Positions 21,488-52,117 of a stretch of DNA of 64,000 bases are shown piece after piece. This DNA comes from Edaphochlamys debaryana (taxonomy: Eukaryota; Chlorophyta; Chlorophyceae; Chlamydomonadales). Under the pieces are notes generated by a model that did no database searches, was not told where the DNA came from, and saw nothing but the letters and a program-made list of their open reading frames with translations. Numbering within the stretch: the stretch's first letter is position 1; every line of letters starts with the position of its first letter. The position numbers and the translations under genes are program-made. The stretch spans positions 310,001-374,000 of the forward strand of contig JAEHOE010000063.1 of assembly GCA_016858145.1 (NCBI GenBank), written 5' to 3'.

Positions 21488-21693
21488 GTAGGGCACCGGG
21501 AGTGGTGTGCGCGCCCATGGATAATGCACGCGGCCAGCAGTCCAGCGAAGCGGGTATGACACCAAATGGAGTACGTACGTGCAGGCCTTGTACAACACTG
21601 TACGGGTTGGTCGGTCGTCGGTCCCGCCGGGGGGCCGGGGAACTTTGGGGCGTTTGGGGCATGATATCGGGGAACTTTGTTTGTACCCTCCCC
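21488..21693 (-). mobile_element. fragment of the same dispersed repeat (copy 2, inverted)
   Basis: The reverse complement begins GTACAAACAAAGTTCCCCGA and follows the copy at 17132-17325 for about 200 bp with many substitutions and short indels. The two inverted copies bracket the truncated kinase gene. Confidence 0.65.
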
Positions 21694-23740: not shown

Positions 23741-24414
23741 TCAAGCCTTGCAACCGCATGGCACCACCTGATGGTTCTTGTTCCTGTCAGCACAGTTGCT
23801 CGTGACACACGCCCCCGCACCACCTGTGTCACTGAATGCGACGCAGCCGACTTGGCCTCGGTAGGTGTTCTGGGCCCCGGTCGCATTATTCAGCAGCGTC
23901 ACACTGAACGTCGGCCGGCATTGTCAGCCGTCCAGATTCGACGCCTTCACTACGACGCCGTTCGGGCACTGCAGCCGCAATGGGTACTGAACGACCGGCG
24001 TGCTGACGGGCGGCGGAGGGGGCGACCGTGGGTTGCACGAGTCCGGGCAGTAGTCGTGGTTCAGTCCGTCCTTGGTCGCCTGGCCGGTCGCAAGAAGGCA
24101 CCAGCTCCCAGCCGGGTCATTGTTGGGGTTTGAGCACCCCAGGTACTGCCCGGGGATGCCCCTCACGTGCCAACTCTGCGGACTGCAGGTGAGCCCCGAC
24201 TTAGTTCGTGCTCCGGCGCCGCACCCAGCACCCGCGGTACTGGGGGGCGGGCTGGGCGGTGGCCTAGGCGGTGGGCTGGGCGGCGGGCTGGGGCGGCTGT
24301 TAGAGCCATGCAGAGGCAGGCTGCGTCCGACGGGCAGCGGTCCCACCAGCCGTTGCGCGCCTGCAGGCAGGCCCCCTGGCTCGTGTCCACTGAGCACCAG
24401 GTGCCCTTGCTTTC
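23741..24414 (-). pseudogene. last exon of the split M43-like metalloprotease gene (decayed)
   Basis: The acceptor AG at 24415-24416 is followed by ESKGTWCSVDTSQGACLQAR and NGWWDRC, in phase 0. This completes the cysteine domain whose first half (CKCLPSWVYRGNTYSGC...PGE) ends, also phase 0, at the donor at 47384. A second such domain follows (CSPQSWHVRGIPGQYLGC...SWCLL...DYC) after an SPPPSPPPRPPPSPPP linker, then VTLLNNATGAQNTYRGQVGC and a terminal CGCKA with TGA at 23741. Two lesions are visible: a one-base frameshift between WWDRCPSDAACL and the proline linker, and an in-frame TGA at 23924-23926. Upstream of the acceptor stands the terminus of the giant element at 24417, so exons are separated by about 23 kb. 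The gene is probably dead. Confidence 0.7.
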
Positions 24415-24416
24415 CT

Positions 24417-24437
24417 ACAAGGCTGGTAGCCAGGAGG
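24417..24437 (+). repeat. left terminal inverted repeat of the element, copy 1
   Basis: ACAAGGCTGGTAGCCAGGAG plus G. It contains a small inverted repeat, GGCT-GGT-AGCC. Identical termini are at 33906-33926 (inverted) and 52097-52117; a one-base-insertion variant is at 43771-43792. Confidence 0.8.
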
Positions 24438-24872
24438 ACCGTAGCTCGGCCCGTGGGTCCAGTGATGCACCACAGAGTTGTTACAAGGTGTGAGCGGCGG
24501 GGCATGGGCCGTGTCTTGTGGGAAGCACCGAACATGGCTCGCCAGTCCGAGTCAGTCGGGAAGGTATGGGATGCCAAGTTCGAAATGATTGTTGGGTATA
24601 ATAGAGTACAGCCATGCATGTGAACGTATTGCAGGGCATGGTTCGGAAAGTACTGTCCAGTTGTCTATGTTAACCAAGATGGCAGCCATGGGAGGTTAAT
24701 GCACATGTGGAATGAACGAGGAGCGCGTCGGTAACCCAGCCGATGAAAAAACGCAGCCGACCGACCATGACCGACCGACCGACCGACCGACCATGAATGA
24801 ATGCCCCGTCACCACCCCCACCCCCCTGCCAACCATGAGGATGGCCTGTGGGTCTGCAGTGATGCCCTCCTA
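24438..24872. other. terminal non-coding region of the element next to gene A1
   Basis: Minus-strand 3' UTR of A1, the same sequence as 33471-33905 and 52118-52548 with small differences. It holds a TGTAA (minus) near 24481-24485 about 65 bp from the end, and a GACC tetranucleotide microsatellite near 24769-24793 whose length differs among the three copies. Confidence 0.6.
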
Positions 24873-27231
24873 CTAGCTGTGCGTGGCGACGAGGAGGTTC
24901 TTCACAGCTTCCATGAAGTCCTGTAGCGACGCACCCTCCCTCATCCCGCGCCTCGCGACGGTGGTGGCAGCCTGTCGGTGCAGGAGTGGAGGCAGGTGAG
25001 TGTGCATTCGCCGGGGCGGGGGCGGGAGTGTGCTTAAGGTCGGGGGGAGGGGAGTACTGAACCAGCCAAGTACCCACCAGCTGTACGAGGGTCGACCAGG
25101 ACACGCGCGCTCCGAAGATCTGCAGGTCATCGATGGCGGCGTACATGGTGTATAGTTGCGCGAGGAGGAGGTTGGCGGCGTTGTTGTTCTCGGTCTCCAC
25201 CATCCACCACGACCAGTTCTCGTTGGACGGCCTCCGCGGAGCCCTTGCAAGGCTGAGTCCAACTCCTCGGAAGGGCAGGACCGCGGAGAGGGGCTTGGGG
25301 ACGTGTCCCTGCTGTCCGGCGGCACGAGGCGTCGCCCAGAGGTCGGGGTCGCCGAAGACGTCGTTGATGCAGTTGACCATGCGGACCAGCCGGTCTTGCA
25401 GGTTCTTGCCGCAGCCGATGACGATGGTGCGGAAGCGTGAGTCCATGATCTTGTGCGTGCCGACGTCCACGAAGTGGCTGATGACCGTCTCATTGGCGCA
25501 GTCGCGGATGAGGTTGCGGGCGTCGGCGTTCAGCGTCCTGACCTGTAGGCCCACGTTCGGCACAGTTGCAGTCACCATGCTTTGAGTCCCCGGCCCGCGG
25601 TGCCACACGAGGTCGTGGGGGATGCTGAAGGTGCCCTCCACCACGGCGGGAACGGCGAACGCGGAGGAGACCTCGATGTGCAGGCTCTTGAGCGTTATGA
25701 GCTGGTCGCTCGCGTTGCGGAGGGCACGCAGCGCGTCTTGCGTGGTGGGGTCGGGCCAGCGCAGGAACATTGCCTGCATCGTGACCTCCACCCCCGGCAC
25801 TGGCGGGCCCTGCGACGCCGATGCGCCGGCGCTGCTGTGCTCCGAACGGTACAGGTCCGACCATCGCAGGAGCTCGCACCGCGCGGCGATGGCGTAGAAG
25901 ACGGTCCGCATCTCTTCGAAGATCGCAGGCATGTTAGCGTACATGATGTCAACGGAGCGGATGTCCAGCAGCTCGCAGGTCTTGTCGCCGTGGGCGCTGG
26001 CCCGTGTGGTCTGTTCCGATGGGCCCGCTCCCCCTGCTGCAGCGTCGCCGCCGCCGTCGTCAGATGCTCCCAGCTCGCGGCGACCCGCGACCTCGGTCCC
26101 TTCCGTGAGCTCCTCCAGCAGCTGCAGTCTGTTGAGGAAGTCGTCGGACGGGTGCGGCCCCACGTAGTCCTCGTGCGTGATGGGGGTCAGCTCGAACAGT
26201 CGCAAGCTGAAGTCCAGGTTGGGGAGCATCGTCAGTCGCTCCAGCGACTTCGGGGCGCTGTTGAGGTGGCGTAGGAATCTCAGGCGGACGCTGTCCGTGC
26301 CGTCGTTGGAGAGGAGCGTGTCTGCCGTGTGCACGATCAGGCGCTTCAGGCCGGGCATCACGGGCAGCATCCACCAGGGATTTTGCTCCATGAGGTAGTG
26401 GAACTGTAGCTGCGCCTCCCAGCCCAGCGTGAAGGTCACTACGCCGGGCCGGGCGCGGGGTTGGTTGTTGCCGTCGAGGGTCGCAGCCCGCAGAACGCAG
26501 GCAATGTCGAAGTCAGCGACAGTCCAGGACGTGATGTGCTGTGCCGATCTGAAGATCGCCGCGAGGCTCCACGTGAAGAGGTCGGAGTCGCTTGGTCGCG
26601 CCTGTGTGACGGGAGCAAGGAGGTGTTGTTGGATGGCGAAGCGGCGACGTGGGAGGTCAGAGTTGCTGCGAGCAACACTCGCTCAAGCAGGCATGGGATC
26701 GTGCCCTTGATGTTGGGACACCGTCGGCGAGCGGTGGAACCCGGGTGCTTGCCCGTTGCGTTCCCCCTACTCACCAGGATGTGTAGCCCCCGGGCGTAAG
26801 GGAATGCGGCCACGAGTGTCCGTATCAGGTCGCAGGGGATGAGGTGCGCGTCGAGGCGCGTTGCAGACTGGAGCGAGACGTCGCGCACGTTCCGCCCGAG
26901 CCCTGGGCCCGTCATCCACGCCCATTCTTGCTGCGCCTTGAAGTATGCTGCCCCGGCATCCACGTAATTGTCAATGGGGGAGTTGGGGGGCTTGGCTGGG
27001 AACCAGGGCTCCGCTGGCGTTTTGTCGCCCAGGTGGTTGCGGATGATGCAGTCCATGAGGAGGAGCAGGCGCCGGTTGCACTCGTCGTTGTCAGCGGTCC
27101 GGACCATGACCTTCTGGACGTTCGCCGTGCGTTGCAGTAGGGCCCGCACCGAGTCCGTGATTTTATCCGGCATGAGGTCAATCCTCAGGCAAAGCTCGTC
27201 CGTCTCCGCGTCGAAGATGCTCCTGAAGCTC
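24873..27231 (-). pseudogene. gene A fragment (A1), F-box/LRR-like protein of the element, 5' truncated
   Basis: Exons 3 (24873-24971) and 2 (25078-26601) have the same lengths as in the full copies, 99 and 1524 nt. Exon 1 is present only from 27231 down to 26775 and lacks the start codon. At 27230-27232 homology to gene A stops at GAAGCTCT and homology to gene C begins, sharing the three bases TCT. Product similarity is described under A2. Confidence 0.75.
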
Positions 27232-28046
27232 TCAACACTGTGCCGCCGGGTGCGTGGTCCACATCCACATTGCAATGACGGTGCCACGTTTGCTATCACT
27301 TTGCCACGCAGCAGACTATCTACCTGGACGGGCGAGCGTACTTGCCCGGGTTGGTGCTTTCATACGACGAGGCTTTCACAACATCCTTCGGGGCGACCAT
27401 CCAGGCCATCCCGCTCGAGACGGTTGATCTCCTGGGCCTGGTGATGGTTGATCAAAGCAACCCTCTAGCGATCAGTGTCGGGGAGCTCACCGCCTGCGAG
27501 GTGTACCGTCTCGTGATGGTAGCTCGGGATGCGGGGGTCATGGCGGACCCTGACTGGGACAAGGACTCGCGCTGGATCGGTGGAGACCCTTCCATCATCC
27601 GCTCGGGGGAGGGTGGGGTGTTCCAAACCTTCTACGGTGTGAGGCGCCAGCTCATGGCTGGGCCCCCTCCGCCTGCCGGGGTTCCGCCGGTCGCGTCCGG
27701 AGGACCCGCGAGCCGCCCGCGGTCGGCCAACACCGCGCAGCCCGCGCCTGGTGCTGGAATGGACGCGATGGGGGCGTTGGGCGCCGTCGGGTCTGGACCC
27801 GGGCCGTCAGGAGCCGGAAAGGTGGGCGTCAGCCCAGCAGACGGTGCCGCGACCAAGCGTGCAGCCAACAGCGAGCTCGCGCCAGACGGAGGGCGGCGAG
27901 CGTCGCGGCAGAGGTGGACGATCGAGGAGTGCTTCGAGCAACACCGACTGCAGGTGGCGGCAACGGCAGCGGCAGCACGGGCGGGGGCCACTTACGATGA
28001 GGATGATGTCATTCACCTCACCCAATCCACGCAATCCACACAGTGA
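27232..28046 (+). pseudogene. gene C fragment (C1), last exon only
   Basis: Homology to gene C of copy 2 starts inside its second intron at 27232. The remaining exon, 27312-28046 (735 nt, TGA), opens QTIYLDGRAYLPGLVLSYDE and ends TQSTQSTQ, the same length as the copy-2 exon (57975-58709). Exons 1 and 2 are missing, so it cannot make the whole protein. See C2 for what is known of the protein. Confidence 0.75.
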
Positions 28047-28519
28047 TGGGTGGGGGATCGTGCCACCACCCCTGCAGCGCATGTAGGCGACACGTCTGGG
28101 GACGAGGAGTGGACCGTGAAGCAGAGACGTGAGAGGGCAGTGGCGAAGTGATTGTAGGCGTGTTGTTTGTGTGGGTTGCGACTCAGACTCATGCAGATTG
28201 GTTAGGCAAGGAAACCGCGACCGAGGCTGGGGCATTCATTTCGGTAGGGGACGGACTTGACGTCGAGGCAGGACCAGCGAGTCTTGACGCTGAGGCCTTT
28301 GGTAGCGATGCGGCCTCGAGGTCTGAGGCTGGCCGACTGTTGGGTCGTCGCTTCGAAACAACCGAAGCCGGGGGTTAGGCGTTCTACCTTCAGTGAACGC
28401 CCAGGCATCTGTAAGCTGCGGCCCTGGCACCGCTGCCCTCGTCCGGCACCACGCCAGTTGAGGTCGGTTGAAGTCGCCTGGGCCGTACCGCCAGCTGGGA
28501 CGAATCCCGGGCCGCTTCT
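28047..28519. other. spacer between genes C and B of the element
   Basis: No exon recognised. It matches 57467-57974 of copy 2 except for an approximately 27-bp segment present only in copy 2 (near 57617-57645) that contains the palindrome CAGCATGCTG. The B promoter should be here. Confidence 0.5.
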
Positions 28520-30502
28520 ATGAAGCAGGCCGCTGCGCAATTCTCACATACATCCACGCTCTACATACAACCGCGGTGGATAGCACACGGGCAGCGACCG
28601 GTGGCAAGGGCGAGCCTGCATTCCCTCGAAATGGCCGCCGCTAACTCTTACCTCGGGCGACACGACGTGCCGACATTTTCTGACGCTCTGGGCGTCGTGC
28701 TGAAACGGGGAATGCTATTCTCGAGCCTTAAAAAACTGAGGCTAGTAAGCAGCGAGGTTCGCGGATGCGTCGACCTCAACACCGAGTCGGTGTTCCTCAA
28801 GTCCCGCACTGGGCTCAACAATGCCCGGACCGACATAGCACCTGGAAAAGGCGGTGGACATCAAGTCGGCCGCCTGCTCGCCGCCCTGGAACGACTGAGG
28901 TGTATCACCCTGCACGCGGCCGACCCCGCGGACGACCCCACGCAACTCCGCGACCTCTTGCGGTACATCCGTGAGTCAACCACGAGAGGGGCGGAAGTCT
29001 CTCACGTACGGATTGTGGGCTCGTCAATGCACTACGACGCCCACCCCATCGCGCCGCAAGACCTCGCCGCGGTGGCCGAGACGTTCCCAAACGTGACCGC
29101 CTTCACGCTGGAGACCGACCTCCGGAAAGGGGTGGACGGACCGGACTACAGCGTCCTGCACGATGCCCTCGTGCTCTGGAGTGCGCGGCTGAACAGCCTG
29201 ACGCTTCCCAGCATGGACAGCCTGCAGGCCCTCACAGGCTGCAGCCTGCCCTGCGTGACCACGCTCGTCGTCGGCTCTCGAGACCGCAAGTGCTGTCCCA
29301 GGCTCGTGGAGAACCTCCATACCGCTCTCCCCTGCTTCCCGGCACTGCGAACTCTGGAGGTCAACGGCCGCGACACGTTCATCTACGCCCCCGACCCAGC
29401 GAGCGTCGCGGGTTTGGCGGCGAGCTTGTGTGTGCACGCGCTGGCTGCTGCCCCGCAGCTGACACGGCTTCAAATCGGCGACGACGTGGAGGTGGTCTGG
29501 AGCCTGCCTGACCAGACGCAGCTGGAAGGGCGACGCCTCACAAGCGTTCACACGATGCTGGTGCACCTGGACCACACCGACCAACACCTGTGGTGCGCCC
29601 TTGCGTCGCTGGTAGAGGCCTCCGCTCAAGCTCACCCGGCGTCACTAGCGCCCACGTTCCGCATCAGCCACGCGCACGTTAGCGGAACGGACATTCGGCA
29701 GGGGCTCGTCGATGTCGCAAGAGTCCTGAAGCTCTGCCGGTACGTGGGGACGCAGAACATCATGGTGCACCGACCTCGCCGCGACCACGTCGTCGACATG
29801 ATAGCCGTCCTGGGAGTGCCCACCACCCTCACATGGTTTCCGTACGCGGGGTACCACCGGTACCACCACGATCTGGAGGCGATGAAGTCATCGGCATGGG
29901 CCACACGTTCGCCTGCGGCCGCTGAGGCAGCATACGAGCGTGTGTGCCGCGCCGCCCGAGCGAGACTCAGGGACACCCGCCACGGGGCCTTCATGGTGGC
30001 GGACGCCCGCACCATCATCATAGTCAGCACGACCTCCTTCGCCCTCCATCTGCGCGACGCCATTTCCACGCTCGACCTCTACGGCATCAAGCACACCACC
30101 GTGGAGTGGGCGGCCAAGCTCTTTGCCCACGCGCTCGTCACCAACGCGCCGGCCGATGGGGACGGCCTGCGCGTGTATGTCGTGCAGTGTGGGACGCGCG
30201 TGGCGGCAGCTCTGCTGCTGCAGGAGTTTTACCACCAAGACGGTGACCGCAGTAGCGGGAACCGCTTCCTGGCAAGCGACCAGGAGTGGAACGTCATCGT
30301 GGAAGAGGTGGGGCCCTACGCATCAACCATGCTTGACGGGATCACTCGTTCCTCTAGGACTTGCAGGCCCCGACGCTACATAACGGCTACCGTGCGTTAC
30401 GTGCAGGCACTCAAGGAGGCAGGCCCCGGCTGCAGCGGGAACGACTTCCTCTTCATCATCGAGCGCACTCAGCGCATGTACAGCTTGCACCCCGACGTTT
30501 GA
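28520..30502 (+). CDS. gene B (B1): LRR-like protein of the giant element, 660 aa, intact ORF
   Basis: One uninterrupted ORF from ATG 28520 to TGA 30500-30502; a second ATG at 28631 (MAAANSYLGRHD) is an alternative start. The middle (about residues 130-360) has the irregular leucine-rich pattern of F-box/LRR proteins, for example FPNVTAFTLETDL, LNSLTLPSMDSLQALTG and LPCVTTLVVGS. The C-terminal part (about 400-660) is alpha/beta-like with TIIIVSTTSFALHLRDAIST and has no family I recognise. A TGTAA at 30850 is a possible poly(A) signal. The copy in element 2 (B2) is broken, so B1 is the better reference. Substrate-receptor function in ubiquitination is only an inference from the LRR resemblance. 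Confidence 0.7.
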   Translation: MKQAAAQFSHTSTLYIQPRWIAHGQRPVARASLHSLEMAAANSYLGRHDVPTFSDALGVVLKRGMLFSSLKKLRLVSSEVRGCVDLNTESVFLKSRTGLNNARTDIAPGKGGGHQVGRLLAALERLRCITLHAADPADDPTQLRDLLRYIRESTTRGAEVSHVRIVGSSMHYDAHPIAPQDLAAVAETFPNVTAFTLETDLRKGVDGPDYSVLHDALVLWSARLNSLTLPSMDSLQALTGCSLPCVTTLVVGSRDRKCCPRLVENLHTALPCFPALRTLEVNGRDTFIYAPDPASVAGLAASLCVHALAAAPQLTRLQIGDDVEVVWSLPDQTQLEGRRLTSVHTMLVHLDHTDQHLWCALASLVEASAQAHPASLAPTFRISHAHVSGTDIRQGLVDVARVLKLCRYVGTQNIMVHRPRRDHVVDMIAVLGVPTTLTWFPYAGYHRYHHDLEAMKSSAWATRSPAAAEAAYERVCRAARARLRDTRHGAFMVADARTIIIVSTTSFALHLRDAISTLDLYGIKHTTVEWAAKLFAHALVTNAPADGDGLRVYVVQCGTRVAAALLLQEFYHQDGDRSSGNRFLASDQEWNVIVEEVGPYASTMLDGITRSSRTCRPRRYITATVRYVQALKEAGPGCSGNDFLFIIERTQRMYSLHPDV

Positions 30503-30965
30503 TAGGGATGGGCGTGGGGCAGTGGGGGTCGAGGGCCGGAAAAACGGGGTCGGGGGGGCGACGTGTGAATGAGCTCTCGGCAGTAAGCCGTCGCCGCGAT
30601 GTAGCTGTTTTGATTGGAGAGGGGGGGGGATGCCCGACGCACACATGCAAATGGCCAGGGGTCGGCATATGATGGAGGCGCGAGCAACGCTGTGTTTTAG
30701 AGGCGCTGTGACGAAGGGGGCGCCGGGGGCGGGGGGAAAGAGCCGGGGGTAGAGGCCACGGGGGAGGCTCATCGCGCCCTCCCGCGACGCGCACGGCGCG
30801 ATTGGGCGACCACCACACCGTGGGAAGAAACTTCCACAATTCCACGAGATGTAACAGAACGGCTCGGACGCTGACTTCCGCTGCACAACATATTCAGAAC
30901 AACGCTTGAGGGTGAAATTGCCATTGACGCTACGGCCCGCTCCGCGCACTGATGTAGCAGCTGCA
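30503..30965. other. spacer between genes B and A of the element
   Basis: No exon recognised. Compared with 55054-55491 in copy 2 it carries an extra stretch of about 35 bp within the G-rich part near 30725-30765. TGTAA of B1 at 30850-30854 and the A promoter should be here. Confidence 0.5.
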
Positions 30966-33470
30966 ATGGAGCTCGCGGAAGCCATGGAGCCTTCCTTCCG
31001 TACGCCTGAAGAGTCAACCAAACTGCTGCAGACTATCTTGCGTTGGCAGCTGAAGAAGGGTGCGGCTCGCTTTGACCCATGCGACAAGCACGCGATCCGG
31101 CTGGCGTGCAAGAGCTTCAGGAGCATCTTCGACGCGGAGACGGACGAGCTTTGCCTGAGGATTGACCTCATGCCGGATAAAATCACGGACTCGGTGCGGG
31201 CCCTACTGCAACGCACGGCGAACGTCCAGAAGGTCATGGTCCGGACCGCTGACAACGACGAGTGCAACCGGCGCCTGCTCCTCCTCATGGACTGCATCAT
31301 CCGCAACCACCTGGGCGACAAAACGCCAGCGGAGCCCTGGTTCCCAGCCAAGCCCCCCAACTCCCCCATCGACAATTACGTGGATGCCAGGGCAGCATAC
31401 TTCAAGGCGCAGCAAGAATGGGCGTGGGCGACGGGCCCAGGGCTCGGGCGGAACGTGCGCGACGTCTCGCTCCAGTCGGCAACGCGCCTCGACGCGCACC
31501 TCATCCCCTGCGACCTGATACGGACACTCGTGGCCGCATTCCCTTACGCCCGGGGGCTACACATCCTGGTGAGTAGGGGGAACGCAACGGGCAAGCACCC
31601 GGGTTCCACCGCTCGCCGACGGTGTCCCAACATCAAGGGCACGATCCCATGCCTGCTTGAGCGAGTGTTGCTCGCAGCAACTCTGACCTCCCGCGTCGCC
31701 GCTTCGCCATCCAACAACACCTCCTTGCTCCCGTCACACAGGCGCGACCAAGCAACTCCGACCTCTTCACGTGGAGCCTCGCGGCGATCTTCAGATCGGC
31801 ACAGCACATCACGTCCTGGACCGTCGCTGACTTCGACATTGCCTGCGTTCTGCGGGCTGCGACCCTCGACGGCAACAACCAACCCCGCGCCCGGCCCGGC
31901 GTAGTGACCTTCACGCTGGGCTGGGAGGCGCAGCTACAGTTCCACTACCTCATGGAGCAAAATCCCTGGTGGATGCTGCCCGTGATGCCCGGCCTGAAGC
32001 GCCTGATCGTGCACACGGCAGACACGCTCCTCTCCAACGACGGCACGGACAGCGTCCGCCTGACATTCCTACGCCACCTCAACAGCGCCCCGAAGTCGCT
32101 GGAGCGACTGACGATGCTCCCCAACCTGGACTTCAGCTTGCCACTGTTCAAGCTGACCCCCATCACGCACGAGGACTACGTGGGGCCGCACCCGTCCGAC
32201 GACTTCCTCAACAGACTGCAGCTGCTGGAGGAGCTCACGGAAGGGACCGAGGTCGCGGGTCGCCGCGAGCCGGGAGCATCTGACGACGGCGGCGGCGACG
32301 CTGCAGCAGGGGGAGCGGGCCCATCGGAACAGACCACACGGGCCAGCGCCCACGGCGACAAGACCTGCGAGCTGCTGGACATCCGCTCCGTTGACATCAT
32401 GTACGCTAACATGCCTGCGATCTTCGAAGAGATGCGGACGGTCTTCTACGCCATCGCCGCGCGGTGCGAGCTCCTGCGATGGTCGGACCTGTACCGTTCG
32501 GAGCACAGCAGCGCCGGCGCATCGGCGTCGCAGGGCCCGCCAGTGCCGGGGGTGGAGGTCACGATGCAGGCAATGTTCCTGCGCTGGCCCGACCCCACCA
32601 CGCAAGACGCGCTGCGTGCCCTCCGCAACGCGAGCGACCAGCTCATAACGCTCAAGAGCCTGCACATCGAGGTCTCCTCCGCGTTCGCCGTTCCCGCCGT
32701 GGTGGAGGGCACCTTCAGCATCCCCCACGACCTCGTGTGGCACCGCGGGCCGGGGACTCAAAGCATGGTGACTGCAACTGTGCCGAACGTGGGCCTACAG
32801 GTCAGGACGCTGAACGCCGACGCCCGCAACCTCATCCGCGACTGCGCCAATGAGACGGTCATCAGCCACTTCGTGGACGTCGGCACGCACAAGATCATGG
32901 ACTCACGCTTCCGCACCATCGTCATCGGCTGCGGCAAGAACCTGCAAGACCGGCTGGTCCGCATGGTCAACTGCATCAACGACGTCTTCGGCGACCCCGA
33001 CCTCTGGGCGACGCCTCGTGCCGCCGGACAGCAGGGACACGTCCCCAAGCCCCTCTCCGCGGTCCTGCCCTTCCGAGGAGTTGGACTCAGCCTTGCAAGG
33101 GCTCCGCGGAGGCCGTCCAACGAGAACTGGTCGTGGTGGATGGTGGAGACCGAGAACAACAACGCCGCCAACCTCCTCCTCGCGCAACTATACACCATGT
33201 ACGCCGCCATCGATGACCTGCAGATCTTCGGAGCGCGCGTGTCCTGGTCGACCCTCGTACAGCTGGTGGGTACTTGGCTGGTTCAGTACTCCCCTCCCCC
33301 CGACCTTAAGCACACTCCCGCCCCCGCCCCGGCGAATGCACACTCACCTGCCTCCACTCCTGCACCGACAGGCTGCCACCACCGTCGCGAGGCGCGGGAT
33401 GAGGGAGGGTGCGTCGCTACAGGACTTCGTGGAAGCTGTGAAGAACCTCCTCGTCGCCACGCACAGCTAG
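30966..33470 (+). CDS. gene A (A2): F-box/LRR-like protein of the giant element, 741 aa
   Basis: Exons 30966-31568 (603 nt), 31742-33265 (1524 nt) and 33372-33470 (99 nt, TAG) join in phase 0. Residues 39-60 (CDKHAIRLACKSFRSIFDAE) resemble the end of an F-box; leucine-rich segments follow (LERLTMLPNLDFSLPLF, NVRDVSLQSATRLD, LITLKSLHIEVSS). An acidic, Ser/Gly-rich loop lies near residues 380-410. No enzyme motif was seen. The start ATG is followed by a clean ORF and matches the copy-2 gene A3 in position. TGTAA at 33858-33862 is about 64 bp from the element terminus, which fits transcription ending inside the element. Role in the element is unknown. Confidence 0.75.
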
Positions 33471-33905
33471 TAGGAGGGCATCACTGCAGACCCACAGGCC
33501 ATCCTCATGGTTGGCAGGGGGGTGGGGGTGGTGACGGGGCATTCATTCATGGTCGGTCAGTCGGTCGGTCGGTCATGGTCGGTCGGCTGCGTTTTTTCAT
33601 CGGCTGGGTTACCGACGCGCTCCTCGTTCATTCCACATGTGCATTAACCTCCCATGGCTGCCATCTTGGTTAACATAGACAACTGGACAGTACTTTCCGA
33701 ACCATGCCCTGCAATACATTCACATGCATGGCTGTACTCTATTATACCCAACAATCTTTTCGAACTTGGCATCCCATACCTTCCCGACTGACTCGGACTG
33801 GCGAGCCATGTTCGGTGCTTCCAACAAGACACGGCCCATGCCCCGCCGCTCACACCTTGTAACAACTCTGTGGTGCATCACTGGACCCACGGGCCGAGCT
33901 ACGGT
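33471..33905. other. 3' UTR and terminal region of the element after A2
   Basis: Contains the GACC-type microsatellite (here as GGTC, near 33553-33583) and TGTAA at 33858-33862, then the terminal repeat at 33906. Corresponds to 24438-24872 and 52118-52548. Confidence 0.6.
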
Positions 33906-33926
33906 CCTCCTGGCTACCAGCCTTGT
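33906..33926 (-). repeat. internal copy of the element terminus, fused to gene D1
   Basis: CCTCCTGGCTACCAGCCTTG plus T, the exact reverse complement of the left terminus. Its last T is the first base of the D1 stop codon on the minus strand (TCA at 33926-33928). In copy 2 gene D is instead followed by its own 3' UTR. Confidence 0.82.
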
Positions 33927-36900
33927 CAGTCCTCGTCCTCCTCCGTTCCCGTGCGCCACTCACTCGAATCCCCGCTAACTGATTCCGTCTCCTCCGCCTC
34001 CGAGCCGCTCATACTGCTCTCGTCCTCTCCTTCCTCCTCCGATATGAAGTCACTGTCGCCGCTGTCCTCATCGCCACTGGCACTCGGGCCGCTGCTGGAG
34101 GGCTCGCTTGTCAGCGCCTCGTCGTCGCACCACAAATCCAGAGCCTCTAACGCCGCTACAAGCGGCAGCGGCGCACTCGTCCAGGACGGCGGCGTCTTGT
34201 AGCCCATCGCGCTGAGGGTGAGCTGGGCGGCGAGGGGAAAGCCGTGGCGGTCCTGCTCCCCAAAGACGCTCCGGCCATTCACCACGCAACTCCCCAGCGT
34301 CTGCGCGATGCGCGGGGATTCTGCAAGCGCCAGCGCCACGCCGACCACCGCCGGGGTCCACCGGGGCTCGTCAGCGCCCCGCGCTCCGCCAATTATTCGG
34401 TAGGGCAGCAGCTTAGAGCACGCCAGCGCCGACGACGAGATCATCGCCCGGTGCGCCTCCGAACCCGCGACCGATTGCGCGCGGCTCAACACGCTGTCGC
34501 CACCCTCGCCTGCGCAAGGGCCGGCGTCCAGGCGCGGGTACAGCGTGAAGAGGTCGAACGAGTCGCGCGGCCCCCGGCCCACGACAGCGTGTCGCGCGCC
34601 GAAGGAATAGGCGGCGTGGATTCCGTCATCAGCGTCAATGGCATACAACGTCGCTGCTGCCTCACGGTCGGTGGCACATGCCGGGCACAGGCACGACACT
34701 ACCGTCGCTGGCCGCGATGATCTCTGACTCTGTCTGTACGTCGGGAGCCCGCCCACTACCGAAAACGCTAGCCCCGGGAATTGCTTGTGCGCTGCCACCA
34801 GCCCGCCCTCTATCAGGTGCGAGGCTGCGGACAGCATGCCCACCTCCGACCGGGCTTGCTCCGCGATGGCTCCACGCACGGCAACGCTACCCGGGCTGTC
34901 GTCGGCTAGCCATCGCGCCCCGCGCGAAAGGCGGATGAGGTGCTCCAGCTGCCGTCATGATGGGAACGGACCTGGGCTCCTGCTCCCAGATGCTCCCCCG
35001 CTCGGCGCTCACCGTCATGACCTTGCCATCAGGTGGGACCGAGAACGTTGCGGCCTCGCCGGAGCTGTTCATCGCGGCGCACAACGAGCCCGCTGTGGCG
35101 CTGTTCGCCACGACGGCAGCCACCCGCTGCAGGGCCAGCGCGGCCGCGAGCGTCGGCAGCTGGAGAGGCGCCAGTCCGTCCAGCGCGGCGGACCACGGCA
35201 GGACGGTCATGCTGCTCCCTCGCTTGTACGTCGAGGCCAACGTCGCCGCGCGCGGCGCGCTCGCGCTGGAGGTCAGACCACCCTCCTGGCTCTCGCCCTG
35301 CGTTTCATTGATTGCGAAGGCGTTCATCAGCAGCGAGAAAACAGCGCTGCTGTTAGGGGCCGAACCATAAGTAGAATCGCCGCCGTGTGATCCAGACCAG
35401 ACGTATGGCTCCCGCCTTGCGCACCTCGTCGTGGGCTGCGTCGGTTCTCGCCCCGCCCTTGGCGCGCGATGGCCTGCCTCCACCTGCCCGGGGAGTTGCG
35501 CCGCCGCCCTGCTTCCCAGCGTTCCGCCGCTCTCCGCCGTGGACCACGCCGCGACCCGCGCCCTTTCCGCCAGCTGACGGGCCGCCGTCCTGAGGGAAGG
35601 GATCCAATGTCGGAGAGGAGGCTCGTTAGCCGGACGCTCAAGTCCGCTCGACGAACAATGGCGCTGACTCTCCAACGACCATCGGTCGGCGAACCTACCT
35701 TCCCTGCGCTGTAGTCGCTGTCGTCGTCGTCCCCGCCGCCCTCCCCGCGGCGCCGCTTGTTAGATGCCGGCCTGCAGGGCTGCACAAGGCCATGCAGGGG
35801 CGAGCGACGGTTGGACAGAGCACGGCCGCGACCATAGTTTACGGGAAGCGTGCAAACGGCCAACTTCTCCGCGTTACTCCTCGCACCTTGGATGACGGCT
35901 TCCTCGTCCGCTCGCCGCTGCCGCCACCCTCGCCCGCACCGGACCCGATGTTCCGGCCTGCGCCAGCGGCCGGGCCCTCGGCTCCGCCCGCGGCGTAGGT
36001 GCGCCCCCCAGCCGCCCAGCCCCCAGTGTCGAGCGCGTCTCCGAGGTTGGAAGGCGGCCGGCCGACCTGCGGCCGGACTCGCCGCCATTTCGTCGCGAAC
36101 GCCTTGATGTTGTACACCGGCCCACCCTCTTGGACCAACCACGAGGACCGCATCACGTCGAATACCCACTTGCGCACCGGCCGGATCTTGAAGAGGCCGT
36201 CACCCAGGTCGGGAAGCTCACATTGCTGCTCGGCCAGAACTCGAACCGGACCTTGCGGACCGAGGACCGGGCGGCGCTGACGATGGCCACCGGCGTGTGG
36301 TAGACCGTCGCGTCGTCGGTGACCTTGACCAGTATCTGCGAACGTTCAACGGGGTGCGATAACCGCAGGGGCGTGAGAAGCGAGGACGGCGAGTAAGCAC
36401 AACGAGTCACGCTGCCTTCCTGAGAGATGTCGCGGGCTCGCGCTTGAGTACCCAGCCTTTTCCCCACGGCCCATTGTGTCAGGAAACACCCCTAGGCAAG
36501 GCCCAACTTTGCCAACACCCACCGGAACCGCCAGCGCCATCTCGGCCACCCCCGGGGCGGAGGGTGGCGGCATGCTGCAGGCGCTCTCTCCGCTTGCGGG
36601 CGCTTCCGATGCCGCAGACGGAGCGGGGACGCACCTCCAACTCTCCTCGCCGCCCGCGGTCTCTGGTTTGTTCGAGACCGGCATCAGCAGGTCCCGCAGG
36701 GCCGTCTCCCGCACCATGTGCACGCGTTCCAGGCTGCTGGCGTTCTTGAAATCGTCTGCCAGACAGATGATGCCCGAAAAGTCACACGCGAGGGTCCCGT
36801 CTCCACCGTCGAACACGGCACCGGGGTCGGTGAGGTCGGCAACCCTCAACGGCGCTGATTTCACGTCGTTGGGGTTGAGCGGCTGGGGCGCCACGTAGAC

Positions 36901-37325
36901 GAGTGACGTCACCATCGTCGTGCCCGCGTCTTTAAAGAAGTCCACGACCTGCAAAGAGGGCAGAATCTGTCGCGATTGTAGGCGTGGGACCTGTCACCCT
37001 CGGCTCCGCACTCTCACCGTTCCCAGTCGGAGTTCATTAATCTCGTTCTGGAGCTCGTATCTCCGGGCCCTTGGTGCAGCCTGGTTCGCTGTTGTGCAGT
37101 CATGCACGAGGCCTGCCAAGGGCGAGGCACGAAATTGCAGTGGATGGTTGCCGGGCGATCGGCAGCATTGTCAGACTCACGAGTGAAGTACCCCTGGGCC
37201 GCTGCGCTCCCGAGAGCAGCCGCGATTGGCGAGTCTTCCCCCGCGTCCTGCCGATCCTTTGCTGCTTTTCTGATCAAGTGCTTGACGGAATCTGAGCTTA
37301 TACTCAGCGGAGAGATGAGGCTCAT
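33926..37325 (-). pseudogene. gene D (D1), frameshifted copy
   Basis: Same layout as D2 (59762-63185), start ATG at 37325, stop at 33926-33928. Two disabling differences are visible: a 5-bp deletion (one of two tandem GCTGC) near 34951 and a 19-bp deletion near 36212, each shifting the frame. The D1 3' UTR, including the TGTAA seen for D2, is replaced by the element terminus at 33926. Treated as non-functional. Protein description under D2. Confidence 0.75.
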
Positions 37326-37614
37326 GGCTAGCTTTGTTGTGCTCGTGCCACCGCTGCATTCAAACGTCCGCAGCGGCGCTCGGCTACAGACCACGGTGGT
37401 TTTTGTAGCAGAGCAAGCACAATTCTGAGTGGTGTCGTTGTGATTGTCAGGGCCTCAGCGCGACGGCCTGCACGAGCGGTCATGTCGTACGACTCCGGGC
37501 CTTTTAGTCCGCGCCGACCAGCTTTCCAGACAATCGCAGCATTGTAAGCAACCACTACACAAGACGCGGGCCTCCGGCTTGACATTACCCACTAGCACCA
37601 AGCCGCTTCCCGAC
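37326..37614. promoter_or_regulatory. divergent intergenic region between genes D and F
   Basis: D starts on the minus strand at 37325 and F on the plus strand at 37615, leaving 289 bp. The same arrangement and sequence is at 63186-63474. A shared bidirectional promoter is the simplest reading. I see no clear TATA box or known motif. Confidence 0.5.
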
Positions 37615-39888
37615 ATGGCGAATTGGCTGCGGCGTGTATGCCAGGAGACCCTTCCCCGTAAGTCTCATTCGCGTCCCGTGCCATTCTCAAGTTGAGTGGT
37701 TTCGTCACTAGGGAGTTTCTTCCTCGCAGACGTGTTCCCTGCAGGGGGGTTTGCGCCCGCCTTTTCGACAGCCGACACTCCCGAAAGCCGCGCTCGCATC
37801 AACGACCTAGTGTTCTCCGAATTGCCGTTGGAAGGACCTCTATCCCCCAGTAAGTCAACCTGTTATGGTCAGGGCCGAGGTGGAGGTGGGGAGACCACGT
37901 TGCGAGCCAACCGTGCCATCGTGCTCTGCCGTCAAGGCTGCCATCAACAAGCGCGGTCCCCCTCTTCGTTGCCAGGCGGCTTTGAGATGAGTAACTACAC
38001 TGCCGCGTTGGAGGAAGGCGTCCTGCTGCCGGAAAGTTTGTGGGTTGCCATGAACGACGACGACCGCCGCAGGCTGGAAGAGGTACAGGAGTACCTCGCC
38101 AACGTGGCAGGAGCGTCGCGGAACCGTGACGAAGGTGCGAGTGCCACTGGGGTGTAGAGGGAGCATAGCTATCGACGGCAACGCAGACCGAACACTTTCC
38201 CTCCATTCGCAGGGTCGATGAAGGACTGGCGCGAGCGATATGAGGACGAGACCGAAACGATGTTCAGGAATCAGATGAGTTCCGTGTACGACGACGGTGA
38301 GAACGGCGTCGCCCCACTGTCGATCGTTCGAACAGATTCCCGCTCACCCACGATGCTTTCCTGCGGACCGTAGATGACTTCGTCGGCGAATACGCGCCCG
38401 CCTCCCTCGGCTACACCTGACGCGCACACCGCCTCATGTCGGCTGGACTTGACGGGGTCATGGGCCTGCTCAATGTCATCGAAAGAGCAGACGGTAAGAA
38501 GGTGACAATTCGCGACGACGGCACCTCACGGACACATGTTCGTTAGCTCAGACTCTGAATCATTTCCTTTCAGAGCCGTCGGTCATGGAGACCCTTTGGG
38601 ACTGCATGAGTCGGCCCTGCATTCTAGAAGGACCCCCGGAGCACGTGGTGACAGAAGAAAGCGTCCTCAAGATCAACGCCGCCCTCTGGTCGCCGAATGA
38701 GGAGCGCCTGGTCCTTAGAGCCCTGGACGCAGCCCTTCCCTGGTCGGGCAGGTTTGACCTCGGATGGCTGCAGCGTGTCAGCGCCGACCACGACGGCGAG
38801 GGTGTCTCGCGTTCACGCTTTCTGGCTCCGGGAGCGGGCGCGTCCTACATGCTGGAGAGGTACGAAACGTCGCTGCCGAGTGACTCTTTGGCACCCTCTC
38901 GACTATATCGTGTGATGAATGCTTCAGGTGCTTGCTGCACTGGTACGACCTGCGACGGACCCAGACCACCCTGCCAATGCCCCCCTCGACGCTGGTACGC
39001 GGCGTCAGCGCCCTCTCCGCGATACTGTTCGAGTCCACTCCTCGCGTCCGCGTGGCTGACCAGTCCACCGCGGCTCCCGATTACGTCGCCGCTGGTTCCT
39101 GGCTGCTGGAGAACATGGGAGAGGTCATGATGTGGGCAGACGCAACCAACGTGGAAGCGCTAGTGCACGGGTGGATCGCTAAAGACGTGAAGGGGCCCAA
39201 CGGACTGGTACTCGCTGGAGGGGCGGTCGCTAACTCCCTTCGGCCGCCTCACAGCCGCAAGCCCATCAATCGCTCCGACGCCGACTTCTTCGTTCTCGGA
39301 GCAGTCAATGCAGGTGCAGCAACAAAGATCGTTGAGTCCTTCCTACGTCGCCTCTACGACGGGTATGACATCTCACAAGTGGTGGTCACCGAGTGCGCGG
39401 TCACGGTGACTCTCAACACTCACGACCCCCAAGGTGGGCCTGCGAGAGCACCCAACAAAGACTTGGATTACACAACTGAGCGCCCCCAACCATCCGGCGC
39501 TCACAACTTGGTGCGACCATTCCTCACGCAAAACCACAGGAGGTCGCCGCACAGACACTGGGCTCAAGGTGCAAATCGTCCTGAGAACATACGCAAACGG
39601 CTCCCATCTCCTCCTCTCCTTCGATATGTGCGGGATTATGGTACTCTGCACACCGCACAAATCAAAGGCAAGTCACCCTTGGCCGTCTTCGGCTACGCCC
39701 CGCCCATCGCCAACACGCCCGACCGTTTCAATTCCTGCAGATACATCAAATGCCACGCTCGTGGCGGAATCCAAGTCCTGCTGAGCAGCGAGTTCAGGCA
39801 CATCCAGGGGTGCTTCTCAAGACTGCCGTACCGGATGACAAAGAAGCTCGTTGCTGTTCTCTACCGAACATACATGCATTACACTTGA
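37615..39888 (+). pseudogene. gene F (F1): nucleotidyltransferase-fold protein of the element, with nonsense codon
   Basis: Exons 37615-37657, 37730-37849, 37976-38134, 38213-38296, 38374-38493, 38574-38859, 38928-39433 and 39555 onward keep phase; the last exon ends at TGA 39886-39888. Exon 5 has an in-frame TGA at 38418 (GYT*RAHRLMSAGL), a likely CGA change. The C-terminal half shows the polymerase-beta-like nucleotidyltransferase pattern known from ankyrin-linked proteins of large DNA viruses and eukaryotes: GLVLAGGAVANSL, SDADFFVLG, VQIVLRTY...LSFDMCG, RYIKCHARGG. The GG and D-x-D pair are present. Joining the last two parts (39667 or so to 39741) gives a phase conflict, so either a non-standard intron or another lesion is there. 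What it modifies is unknown. Confidence 0.6.
39879..39883 (-). terminator. TGTAA polyadenylation signal of gene HE
   Basis: Minus-strand TGTAA about 105 bp after the HE stop at 39988. It lies inside the last codons of convergent gene F, so the two transcripts overlap at their 3' ends. Confidence 0.5.
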
Positions 39889-39987
39889 GACAACATACAT
39901 GCCAGCGATCTTCCTGCCGCCCTCTCCCTCACCGTTTCGGCCTGTCCCGTCCCGACCGGTCCCGGCTGCTTCCCGGTCAGACTTTCA

Positions 39988-42900
39988 TCAACGGCGAACC
40001 TTCTTCTGAGACTTCTTCGCCAACTGCTTCTGACGCTTGGGCTTTGCCCCGACGGCTTCCTCGGGGTCCTCCTCCACCTCCGCTTACCAGCCACCGTGAT
40101 GTCGGAAGGGAAGTCCTCCAACTCCCCGAGCCGAACCAGAGCAGACCGCAGTTCCGCGACGGCCATGCCGAAATCGTCCGAGCACTTGTACGGCAGTGGC
40201 AGAGCTCCGGCCGCCATCATGTACACCGCCACGGCCGGAGGCGGGCCCTTGTCCCCCAAGCGCTTCCACACCTTGGTGCGCTTTCCAAGCAGAGGTGCAA
40301 ACACTGGCCGTAGAGCGCAAGTCTCGATGCGGGCAGCCACGATCAGCTCCGTGGCGCGGAACCAAGCATAGCCGTCCTTATCGGGGAAGCCTATCTGGTC
40401 GTTGTAGTACACTGAGAGCTTCTCGCACGCCCGTCGGCCGGCCTGCTTTGACGCATCGGAATCGCCCCCGCGAGCGGACGGCTCGGGCACGTCGAGCTCT
40501 GCCACTTTGCGCTCCCACAAGCGTTGAGTCTCGTCAGCCTGCTGCGCCTCCTCTACGCTGGCTCCGGGGGCAGCATCAAAGGAGGGCGCGCCGGCACCCA
40601 CCAGAACAGGCCGAGGGAGGACGTCGATCGTCGCGGACCGAATGGGCGGCCGCGGGTCGCCGGCGGGCACCACCACCGGCATCGCAGCCTCGCCGTACCG
40701 ATCGCGCCACGCCGTGCGCATGTTGTCCAGGCGCAAAAAATGCAGGCACCACCGAACGCGTGGCTTGACGCGATTCTTGGGGTCGATCAGGTGCCGCTTG
40801 AAGAACCCACTCTCCAGCATGTTGTACATGATCATGTTCAGGGTGGGCTCCGCCACGCAGTTGTAGCACATGCAGACCGAGACGATCTGGACAGGGGTCG
40901 CATCCACAGAACTTGCCACAGCAGCCGGCGCCCTGGACGTGGAGGGGCCCGCTGCCGCGCGGGAAGCAGCAGCGACAGAGCCCCCCACTCCCGCTGCCGC
41001 CTTGACTCCCTCCACGGTCAACCGGCCCCCGATCACTGTCGCGATGCCCACCATGCCCTTCTTGGCGGAGTGGATGTGACCGTTGACGATGGCCTTTGCA
41101 GTGGGTATAATCGCCAGGTGACGCTGCAAACTCCAATACCGCTCGCCCTCCTTCTCGGCAATGGCGCCCGTGATCCCAGCGGGAGCCTCGGACATCACCG
41201 CTGCCGTCCGAGCGAACTGCATCATGTACATTGGCCAGATGCGCGCCTCGCAGAAGGTGGGGTCCTCCGGCCTTGGCGCCGTGTCCGCGAAGAGTCGTGG
41301 CACGAGGCTGGGGCTGGAGACGGCGAGCCAAGGGAGGTGCCAAGGGAGGTGCCCGCGAGCCAAGGGAGGTGCCCGCGAGGGAGGTGCCAAGGGAGGTGCC
41401 CGCGAGGGAGGTGCCCGCGAGGGAGGTGCCAAGGGAGGTGCCCGCGAGGGAGGTGCCCGCGAGGGAGGTGCCAAGGGAGGTGCCCGCGAGCCAAGGGAGG
41501 TGCCCGCGAGTTGGTGACCCGTGTAGAGGTCGTCGAGACGTGCGTCACGAAGGTCGCGGACGACACGAGCGTGGGAAGCGCAGATTGCGAGCAGCTCGTC
41601 GGTGGTTAGCTCTCCAATCGCGTCGTGCGTGCTCTGATCAGCGCCCTCGGGTCCCGTGTGGCTGAACGCCCCCGACCTTCTCGGCAGGACTTGCAAGTGA
41701 CGGGAATCGTTCATCAACCTCTTGGTGAGCGTCTTGGAGGGAGCGGTCAGCCAGACCGGTGGCAGAAACTCGCCGGTCGCGGAGTCGAATAGATTGGGTG
41801 GAAGACGCTTGGACCAGTTCATGCCAGGGCCGGCTCGATCGTTCCATGGAGGCAGAGGCCGGGGAACGTTGGCTGGGTCACGGGGTTGAACGACGCCGAC
41901 GCCCGGAGCGTCGTCGTCGTCGGTCTCGCCCTCCTCTGACGTGCTGGCCGACAGCTCCTCGCCGCTCTCGGACTCCTCGCCCGACTCTCCAACATCTGCC
42001 GCGAGAGCGGAAGGCGTCTGCGGAGAAAGCGAAGGCGTGAGGCGGTTGTGAAGCGCCGACTAACAGCCCGTGCTGGCCGCCAGCGACGTCGGCGCCGGTC
42101 GCACCTGTGCGGCACTGGCGCCACTCGGAGGAGCGCTGGACTGCACTTGGTACCCTTGAATCACGCCAGGAGCCGGGACCACAGCTGCCGGCACGCCTCC
42201 GATAGCGGGCAGCCGTGATTTCCGCACGCCCCGGAAGAACGCGAAGGAGCCGCACGACGCCGAGTCCGCCAGCGCGGCAGAGCGCTGACGTTGAAGGAAG
42301 GCGGTCACTTGCGCGGCCAGGCGAGTGAGGAGAAGAGCCGTCAGGGGTGAGAGGGACACGGGGATGTTGTTCTCCAGGGTTACCACCACGATTCCGTCCA
42401 GGTCTGCCAGCCGGAGTGGCAGGCAGAAGGGCACCACCGCACCCATGACGCCGTCCGAGAAGTGGAGCAGAGCGACCGCAAGGGTGCACCTCTCGTCCTC
42501 GAAATCGTAGTCCTTCGCCTTAAACTCCAGCTCGTCCTGCAATGTTATGCACATACATCCGCTAAAACCACTCCGCGAATGAGAAAGTTGGCTGCCAAGG
42601 GAAGGAACCAAGCACTGCGACCGCGACTAACCGTATCAAGTAGTCACCCTCCAAACGAACATCCCCGTTCACCCACCGGGAGAACGTAGACGGACCCGAC
42701 TGTGAGCTCAGCGTGGTCGGTGCCGTGTGCGACGAGAGCCTGAGCAGCCGCGTGAGCCACTACCCCGCCAAGGACGAGGACCTCGTTGAACTTTGCGGTC
42801 GACACGTCATCCTCCACTCCCTCCGGCGGTTGACGCAGACGGAAAGCAGCTGCCTTGAATCGGTCCTTGTTATCGGAGCCGTAGCCAAACCGCCACTCTC

Positions 42901-43392
42901 CGTCGAGCGACGCCAGCACGTCGCCAGAGGAGTAGGGGGATGCCGGGGTGGTGTTGCTGCCCTTATCGGAAGGTGTGTACACAGCGGGGAAGCACAGCCT
43001 CGCAGACTTCGCGACGAGCGCCCTGTCCACCTGTACGCAGGAAAGGGAGCTTCCTGTGTTTAGAGGGATGCGCTACATTTGCTCCTAGTCATCGGCAACC
43101 TAAATCACCGGGCTGGAAGCTACCAAGAGCTTACCGTTCCGAGCTGGGAGGTCCTAGGCACCCCTGTGCCACCCCCGGGGGGCTCCAGGCAGCCTGAAAA
43201 AGCGAAATGGGGAATCAATTGAGGAACCGCGGGACGTGACTTCACCACACGAGCTTAATGGCCTTATGCCTCACTTTTCAGCTTGCGGAGGGCTGCGAAT
43301 GAAGAAGGAGGGCCACCAGCCTCCACAAGCCCAGCCAGCTCGTGCCGCACTACATCAATATCGACGTCTTGCGAGCTCAAGAACACCGCCAT
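39988..43392 (-). CDS. gene HE: about 1000-aa protein of the giant element, unknown family
   Basis: Exons (minus): 43275-43392 with ATG, 43135-43193, 42677-43030, 42105-42536 and 42017 to 39988. Phases fit throughout (118+59+354+432 nt, then the long exon). It starts MAVFLSSQDVDIDVVRHELA; a short acidic stretch (ESGEESESGEELSASTSEEG) opens exon 5; a proline-rich minisatellite lies at residues of about 380-440; the middle has CMCYNC and a conserved-looking RVRWCLHFLRLDNMRTAWRD. The C-terminus in one frame is EEDPEEAVGAKPKRQKQLAK then KSQKKVRR-stop, a likely nuclear localisation signal, but the frame changes near 40080 (a GTAAGC is there), so a small lesion or an alternative last intron exists. 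No transposase signature (DDE, HUH, Tyr/Ser recombinase) was recognised. It is the only large gene beside the right TIR. Confidence 0.65.
41323..41514. repeat. coding minisatellite in gene HE
   Basis: Interleaved units CCAAGGGAGGTG and CCCGCGAGGGAGGTG recur about 14 times; on the minus strand they read RAPP/LAPPS. The ORF stays open through the array, so it may be translated, but it could also be an intron expansion, since a YTG|GTCACC-like donor and a CTCCAG acceptor flank it (phases do not match well). Confidence 0.85.
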
Positions 43393-43770
43393 GTTGAACC
43401 GCTACAGATATAACCGCATAGACGCCTTGGCGCAAGCCTCGCAAATCTATATTGCAATCGTTTGCGTGAGGCCCGCCTCGTATGTTGTGTCGCTATATGC
43501 GTTTAGATGGTAACCAAGCGGCGGGCGTGTGTGGGAATGTGTAGCGCGAAACATAATTTGGGACCGGACTGCTCGCCCCAGCCATCGCAAGGCCGATCCC
43601 CGGGCAACGCGACTGTCCGGCAAACGGCCACAACGAGTAAACCTTCGCGAGGAGGCGTATCTGTCCAACAAGAGAGTGACAGAGTAAGATCGCTGGGGAC
43701 AAGGGGGAGAGAGGTGATGTAGGACACGCTCAGTCGAGCGGTTATGTCAAGGGTGTTCCCATATCGCCTA
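43393..43770. other. 5' flank of gene HE, right end of the element
   Basis: No exon recognised. It should hold the HE promoter. The stretch runs into the right terminal repeat. Confidence 0.45.
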
Positions 43771-43792
43771 CCTCCTGGCTACCAGCCGTTGT
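43771..43792 (-). repeat. right terminal inverted repeat of the element, copy 1
   Basis: CCTCCTGGCTACCAGCCGTT plus GT. Reverse complement matches the left terminus at 24417 with one inserted C after ACAA; beyond 22 bp the two ends diverge. Confidence 0.75.
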
Positions 43793-44340
43793 GTCAGGCC
43801 AACGACCAAGGGCACCTCACGACGCCGTTATACTCTGACGCGCTCCAAAAAGGATCGAATGGGCTTACATCCCGGACGGCAGAGGCGTTTTGCACAGGGC
43901 CCTTACAGCTATTCAGCTTGACCGGACAGCCCCCCGCCACCTCTCGTGCCAGGAGCTCTAGTGCCCTCACCACTATACCAGGCACCCCTTGTGACAAAAC
44001 AGGTCGCCAAACACGCCCACACACCGAAGCACATACAGCTAAAACCGACAGCAGGGGCTGCCTGGTTGCCCTCCTCATCATGCCCTCCACGTGGCTCCCC
44101 TAGTCCGGCTCTACGGAACACCCCCCCCAGCCTTCCGCCATAGTTCTGCTGGCCTTCCTTCCGAATAACCTAGTCAGAAGTCCCTCTCACCCCTCTTGCC
44201 CTCCACAAGCATACCTCTACATCATCCACTTTGGGCATCAAACGACGCAGCGGCCTTCAGCAACGAGCCTGCAACCACCTCCGCGGCCCGATGTTAACCC
44301 TCCAATCGAGTCCAGTCCCGACTTTGCCTTCAAAGCTCCC
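43793..44340. other. 3' flank of gene G, outside the element
   Basis: Pyrimidine-rich, no exon recognised. TGTAA on the minus strand at 43903-43907 is a candidate poly(A) signal for gene G. If the element is removed, minus-strand GGTCGTTGGCCTGAC would sit directly before the AG|GAAAGC acceptor of the metalloprotease exon. Confidence 0.45.
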
Positions 44341-52096: not shown

Positions 52097-52117
52097 ACAA
52101 GGCTGGTAGCCAGGAGG
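52097..52117 (+). repeat. left terminal repeat of the element, copy 2
   Basis: ACAAGGCTGGTAGCCAGGAG plus G, identical to 24417-24437. The flanking bases are CATCTGGG, different from the flank at 24417, which fixes the element boundary at ACAA. Confidence 0.8.

Follow-up and report, generated by a model that had tools for sequence, protein, structure and literature searches.

The closest described systems to the element studied here are the Helitron2 transposons, which are characterized by a 5′ repeat located 0–2 bp from the end and a 3′ repeat located ~20–30 bp from the end just before a hairpin, together with a preference for T at the 5′ end, no target duplication, and a 5′ hairpin formed with the 5′ repeat (Bao and Jurka 2013, PMC3627910). 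For some Helitron2 elements, a hairpin has been described at each end (PMC5148889). In Chlamydomonas reinhardtii, the nonautonomous Helitron2 elements CRe-1, CRe-2, and CRe-3 carry Fanzor1 genes (PMC3627910), and Helitron2 elements were reported in all of the species studied by Craig et al. (2021, PMC8226300), including Edaphochlamys debaryana, a relative of Chlamydomonas; theirs was the only literature that we found on the Helitrons of E. debaryana, and nothing was found on transposable elements with terminal inverted repeats in this species or on giant Helitrons. Here, we analyzed a stretch of 64,000 nucleotides of the E. debaryana genome (the window), which corresponds to positions 310001–374000 of the contig denoted C63; other C-numbers denote contigs of the same genome. 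An earlier note, made from the letters of this window, had proposed a previously unrecognized type of transposon with terminal inverted repeats (TIRs), ~17.5 kb in size, between positions 24417 and 43792. Our results indicated instead that the element very probably belongs to a family of nonautonomous, cargo-bearing Helitrons (rolling-circle transposons) with Helitron2-style asymmetric ends, which measure 20.8–27.1 kb in five fully placed copies.

We addressed the extent of the element by comparing its borders with their matches across the genome (141.9 Mb in 502 contigs). The sequence ACAAGGCTGGTAGCCAGGAGG stands at 24417 and a near-identical inverted copy ends at 43792, so that the inverted 21–22 bp repeats are present as claimed; sequence comparison also confirmed the same terminus at 52097 with a different flank, and an additional 24417-type end was observed at 33926 in inverted orientation. 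The pattern of the 43792-type repeat occurred 19 times in the genome (three of these being 24417-type ends that happen to fit) versus none for the reversed control, and a chance origin of the repeat was therefore rejected. However, 43792 proved not to be an element end. The flank outside this repeat was shared by 7/7 copies compared (copies picked for holding both repeats), and the shared sequence ran on for 3.3–4.7 kb to one boundary, GAGCTACGGTCA, at window position 47138, in each of the four copies for which sufficient flanking sequence was fetched (C63, two copies; C136 and C123, one each). Because this boundary is common to the copies, the unit comprises 22.7 kb rather than 24417–43792, and the proposed size of ~17.5 kb corresponds to the interval that separates the 3′ end from the internal repeat, which is 17,465 bp in the C136 copy. 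When the first 84 bases of the 24417-type end were used as the query, all of the 40 matches scored (from 42 candidates) began at base 24417, with 21 reaching at least 46 bases and 19 stopping at base 39; since the outer flanks of the fetched ends differ, save a few related pairs, and all matches start at the same base, 24417 is a true end. With the last 100 bp at the 47138 end, 32 of 40 scored matches (from 55 candidates) began at the terminal base, and eight covered the inner half only. Five copies with both ends placed from the terminal base measured 22.7, 27.1, 22.1, 20.8, and 23.1 kb, and the C90 copy spans 31.7 kb by coordinates, its sequence having been fetched short of the 5′ end. The elements in the window and their parts are as follows.

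24417–47138, minus strand: complete first element, 22,722 bp, 5′ end at 47138 and 3′ end at 24417; boundaries common to independent copies, with an empty site for the same-ended copy in C123
47127–47138, minus strand: 5′ end, T followed by the 11-nt 5′ asymmetric inverted repeat (GACCGTAGCTC)
24417–24447, minus strand: 3′ end, 11-nt repeat GAGCTACGGTC (24437–24447), then the hairpin GGCT-ACC-AGCC, then CCTTGT
46016–46868, minus strand: diverged subterminal repeats by the 5′ end; similar ones occur in a RepHel-bearing element of C22
43771–43792, plus strand: internal inverted copy of the 3′ end (the right-hand TIR of the earlier note)
27230–33927, plus strand: second copy of the same family, inverted and 5′-truncated, with its 3′ end at 33926 within the first element
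52097–64000, minus strand: 3′ portion of another full copy (C63:362097–389209, 27.1 kb), 3′ end at 52097, extending past the window

On the minus strand, the first element starts with T-GACCGTAGCTC and finishes with GAGCTACGGTC-CTCCTGGCTACCAGCCTTGT. One 11-bp inverted repeat is thereby placed asymmetrically, 1 nt inward of position 47138 on the 5′ side and 20 nt inward of position 24417 on the 3′ side, before the short hairpin, which is the arrangement of Helitron2 ends; inverted repeats at both extreme ends, as in a TIR transposon, were not found, given that the 43792 repeat is internal and the true ends are asymmetric. Because hairpins at both ends occur in some Helitron2 elements (PMC5148889), and no terminal hairpin involving the 5′ repeat was detected here, we termed the family a Helitron with Helitron2-style ends. 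The insertion product was consistent with these ends. A paralogous empty site at C40:635480–635601 comprises both flanks of the C123 copy at 99% identity with a single T between them, and C123 holds 20,782 bp where the empty site has this one T, without target duplication. Other copies of the repeat that flanks the C123 element, among them C9:1123039, had the same flank-T-flank junction over ~84 bases. Among distinct flanks of fetched loci, with ends defined by exact motifs, the base preceding the 5′ end was a purine in 22/22 and the base following the 3′ end was a pyrimidine in 21/27. The genome search, copy alignment, and hunt for empty sites that the earlier note had proposed bore out multicopy inverted repeats, and they placed the right-hand repeat inside the element and yielded one empty site, with 47138/24417-type ends. 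Separately, the copies at C383:2358 and C36:938299 have the same 3′ outer flank, which is a genomic repeat in its own right.

RepHel-coding relatives with the same ends were found in the same genome, contrary to the proposal of an unrecognized transposon type. A profile search with Helitron_like_N gave 32 rows, representing 30 loci after two rows were left out as second pieces of a locus. A family 5′ end in the same orientation lay within 20 kb of nine of these 30 loci (five matched from the terminal base and four over the inner half only), and in seven of the nine it lay at 8.2–8.8 kb, compared with ~0.003 expected per locus. The element at C22:715047–726636 (11,590 bp) contains a Rep open reading frame (ORF), its RepHel being cut short, plus another ORF that Pfam does not match; its 3′ end agrees with that of the window element at 39/39 nt, and the first 707 nt of its 5′ end are 87.5% identical. 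A RepHel ORF of 1,997 amino acids in C104 contains DUF6570 together with HLH, YxxxY, and Walker A motifs (motifs by simple pattern); its own Helitron_like_N match (E 5.2e-5, 24.0 bits) falls below the cut-off of 28.9, which other loci of the family exceed. A search with this C104 protein, in which 24 of 152 candidates were scored, recovered at least 20 loci (49 rows, merged by hand). In 18 of the 20, a family end (3′ or 5′) was located within 25 kb in the same orientation, with the match beginning at the terminal base in 14, and in six loci the 3′ end was 8.86–8.97 kb away. The large copies themselves gave no significant RepHel match with either RepHel query in the 10 tested, of which four are complete (best E 2.4), and none of the 49 rows falls inside the large copies analyzed. 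Thus, the lack of detected RepHel in the large copies together with the presence of RepHel elements with the same ends makes mobilization in trans the best explanation, and the window element is probably mobilized by the RepHel of its relatives. The RepHel of a relative would nick at the 5′ end (47138), the strand would be displaced by rolling-circle replication as far as the 3′ hairpin terminator (24417), the copy would be inserted at a purine-T site, and the cargo genes would be carried along. Accommodation in this scheme came easily to several earlier statements: the multicopy mobile unit was borne out by copies spread over the genome, no recognizable transposase of its own was detected (no RepHel in 10 copies and no Pfam family reaching the cut-off in 18 ORFs), and mobilization in trans, previously offered as an alternative, was probably right. 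What looked like a new type of transposon is therefore a known kind of element in a large form that carries genes.

Several observations weigh against the Helitron assignment or its RepHel partnership. The 3′ hairpin is short and weak by energy, with 29 of 200 shuffles folding as well. No strong 5′ hairpin using the 5′ repeat was found: the best complement within 300 nt matched 7/11, and the 60-nt end folded no better than shuffles. Empty sites were obtained for one of seven joined flank pairs queried. On the side of the partner, Pfam names no helicase part in the C104 ORF, four of the 18 end-associated RepHel loci are tied to the family by an inner-half 5′ match only, and two of the 20 loci (C38 and C15:29939), both more diverged, have no family end.

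Other arrangements of family ends were also noted. At C199:17612 and C303:23048, a 5′ end on the side of the RepHel is bordered externally by one and the same segment from the interior of the large element, near the internal repeat; this pattern reflects either a single nested insertion that was later duplicated or a site that is preferred for insertion. The two 5′ ends at C168:13622 and C168:26232 are 12.61 kb apart and have identical outer flanks, representing a duplication that includes the flank. A 1.77-kb sequence at C89:176552–178325 has the 39-nt 3′ end and a 5′ end and is, by its ends, a short nonautonomous form of the same group.

Compared with CRe-1, CRe-2, and CRe-3, as described by Bao and Jurka (PMC3627910), the family is likewise nonautonomous and protein-coding, with asymmetric repeats and 5′-truncated copies, and it shares with RepHel elements only a 5′ stretch (~200 bp in CRe and ~700 bp here) and a 3′ stretch (~50 and 39, respectively). 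In contrast, it carries several unrecognized ORFs rather than Fanzor1, measures 21–27 kb, and has the target R-T-Y rather than insertion after TTTT, and the 7–19 bp duplications of the CRe elements were not seen. The autonomous Helitron2 elements such as Helitron-1_CRe (PMC3627910) resemble it in having inverted repeats placed asymmetrically at the termini, a hairpin at the 3′ end, a T at the 5′ end, and no target duplication, whereas neither a RepHel nor a strong 5′ hairpin was detected in the window element. Subterminal inverted repeats, a 3′ stem-loop, trans-mobilized partners, and insertion at T are shared with the elements, including DINE-1, of a 2014 study (PMC4067079); however, the DINE-1 elements code for no protein, and, in a further difference from that system, the partner RepHel gave no match to an endonuclease domain (by Pfam only). 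In being large and holding extra genes, the element also resembles the gene-capturing Helitrons of maize and fungi, which reach 39 kb in maize (PMC6431247), but those hold host-gene fragments, whereas no host parent was found for the cargo ORF A described below.

Several of the cargo ORFs are listed here.

24751–26682, minus strand: ORF A; further copies at 52379–54358 and, inverted, at 31661–33592
38498–39885, plus strand: ORF(s) HE, oriented opposite to the element; matches no protein family
39882–42059, minus strand: ORF F, with a tandem array at 41331–41490; frame differs from other copies by small indels
42063–42626, minus strand: ORF of 188 amino acids by the 5′ side, stop-free in 14/15 near-full-length matches
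59765–61600, minus strand: ORF E (612 amino acids) of the copy with its 3′ end at 52097; 54 rows at 36–100% identity

In a protein search of the genome, ORF A was found at 23 loci (56 rows merged by hand), of which 20 adjoin a family 3′ end, one begins at a contig edge, and two (C25:919667 and C32:993024) lie away from any family 3′ end; it was stop-free in 11/15 near-full-length matches, and the same search found no host parent gene in this genome. The 188-amino-acid ORF had one distant match at C20:910071 (38%), and the 54 rows of E59765 sit on contigs nearly all of which were recovered by the other searches. No Pfam family exceeded the cut-off in the 18 ORFs tested (one of which, 23924–24619, straddles the 3′ end; ~24 shorter ORFs of 100–235 amino acids at 36900–38500 and 43793–47138 were outside this search), and no DDE or other transposase, reverse transcriptase, or recombinase domain was matched. 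ORF B gave an F-box hint at E 0.14, below the Pfam cut-off, and the ORF at 38884–39885 (plus strand) contains a stretch GG...SDADFF that we take to be reminiscent of nucleotidyltransferase motifs, for which Pfam gave nothing. PHROGs matched none of 10 ORFs, protein-database searches with the cargo ORFs (8000 candidates each) found no relatives, viral-contig scans and PDB sequence searches returned nothing informative, and the structure model of ORF C (mean pLDDT 39) was likewise uninformative.

We weighed these results against other explanations of the element. That it is a new DNA transposon bounded by the inverted 21–22 bp repeats at 24417 and 43792 and moved by an unrecognized enzyme draws on the recurrence of both repeats, inverted and ~17–22 kb apart, in the seven copies compared; however, the sequence beyond the right repeat is common to all seven, the real right boundary is 47138, the single empty site fits 47138/24417-type ends without target duplication, and RepHel relatives carry the same ends. 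On the shared right flank and the empty site, a TIR transposon was rejected, and we attach next to no probability to it. The TIR-like appearance arises from the inverted terminator-like repeat at 43771–43792, of which 120 bp including the repeat match the genome 17 times; it lacks the 11-nt repeat, resembles only ~20 nt of one element end, and is probably a relic of another Helitron end. An inverted terminator-like sequence inside an element can thus mimic a terminal inverted repeat. This internal copy also invites comparison with tyrosine-recombinase elements (DIRS, Crypton) whose inverted repeats are split and which contain a complementary region internally, since DIRS elements carry an internal inverted copy of one end. 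Yet no reverse transcriptase or recombinase domain was found in the 18 ORFs, for which a DIRS-like element was rejected, the internal copy matches only that short part of one end, and a Helitron partner accounts for the ends, which are common with RepHel elements; we regard this origin as highly improbable.

A semi-autonomous element, whose cargo proteins act in replication, insertion, or the avoidance of silencing, deserves more weight, although we consider it rather unlikely. ORF A occurs almost exclusively within the family, and we compared unique changes between copies with shuffled placements, using opposite-strand frames as controls; this replaced an earlier dN/dS count, which had counted inherited changes repeatedly and gave similar values for the opposite-strand controls (0.31–2.11). 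Across 13 ORFs, some of them overlapping, the unique changes included nine stops versus 25.0 expected, while the twelve control frames showed eight versus 11.5 expected; these counts are biased in that the ORFs were picked for being open in the window. Amino-acid changes were clearly below the shuffles in four of 12 ORFs (D, E59765, E61683, and F39882; 1–16 of 500 shuffles as low) and in none of 12 opposite-strand frames, among which the lowest value was 54 of 500. However, the signal is modest, comes from only 10 related copies, and does not appear in the other ORFs, including B and E62209; the frame of F39882, one of the four, differs between copies by indels; and no recognized domain was found in the cargo ORFs tested. 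Single-base indels are numerous in two small contigs, C383 and C388, and may be assembly errors. Taken together, the pattern of changes suggests that some cargo genes are kept by selection. We tentatively raise the possibility, which we hold to be doubtful, that the cargo is an element-owned gene set kept by selection rather than captured host debris, such that the element would be a 22-kb rolling-circle satellite that supplies its own proteins and parasitizes the RepHel of its relatives. Under the preferred reading, a nonautonomous Helitron mobilized in trans, an apparent new transposon type was resolved into a defined Helitron family with a likely RepHel partner. Its size and unrecognized gene set, with ORF A at least nearly family-confined, are unusual relative to the Helitron literature cited here, and the cargo set provides concrete material for investigating the reasons that rolling-circle elements retain cargo.

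The first element was disrupted by the second copy. Its 3′ part (24417–27232) is followed by the inverted second-copy piece (27230–33927) and then by its 5′ part, with a 3-bp overlap (27230–27232) at the junction, and ~4.85 kb of the first element is missing beside the inserted copy. The copy at 52097 preserves the preinsertion site, ACGACA-TCAGTCC, and the inserted 3′ end is followed by CAGTCC. In the simplest history, either an inverted copy was inserted and a deletion followed, or a 5′-truncated copy was inserted; the data fit both.

Other repeats were observed elsewhere in the window. An array of ~68 copies of a 51-bp unit occupies 12833–16283 and reads through without stops in several frames for more than 1,200 amino acids, and ~24 copies of a 63-bp unit lie at 5443–6975 within an ORF of 1,093 amino acids. 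A direct duplication (98% identical) links 8819–9355 and 10818–11358, with a second duplicated piece at 937–1095 and 11977–12136. In addition, an inverted repeat of ~200 bp (17122–17325 and 21487–21696; 78% identity, 4.2 kb apart) possibly represents the ends of another transposon.

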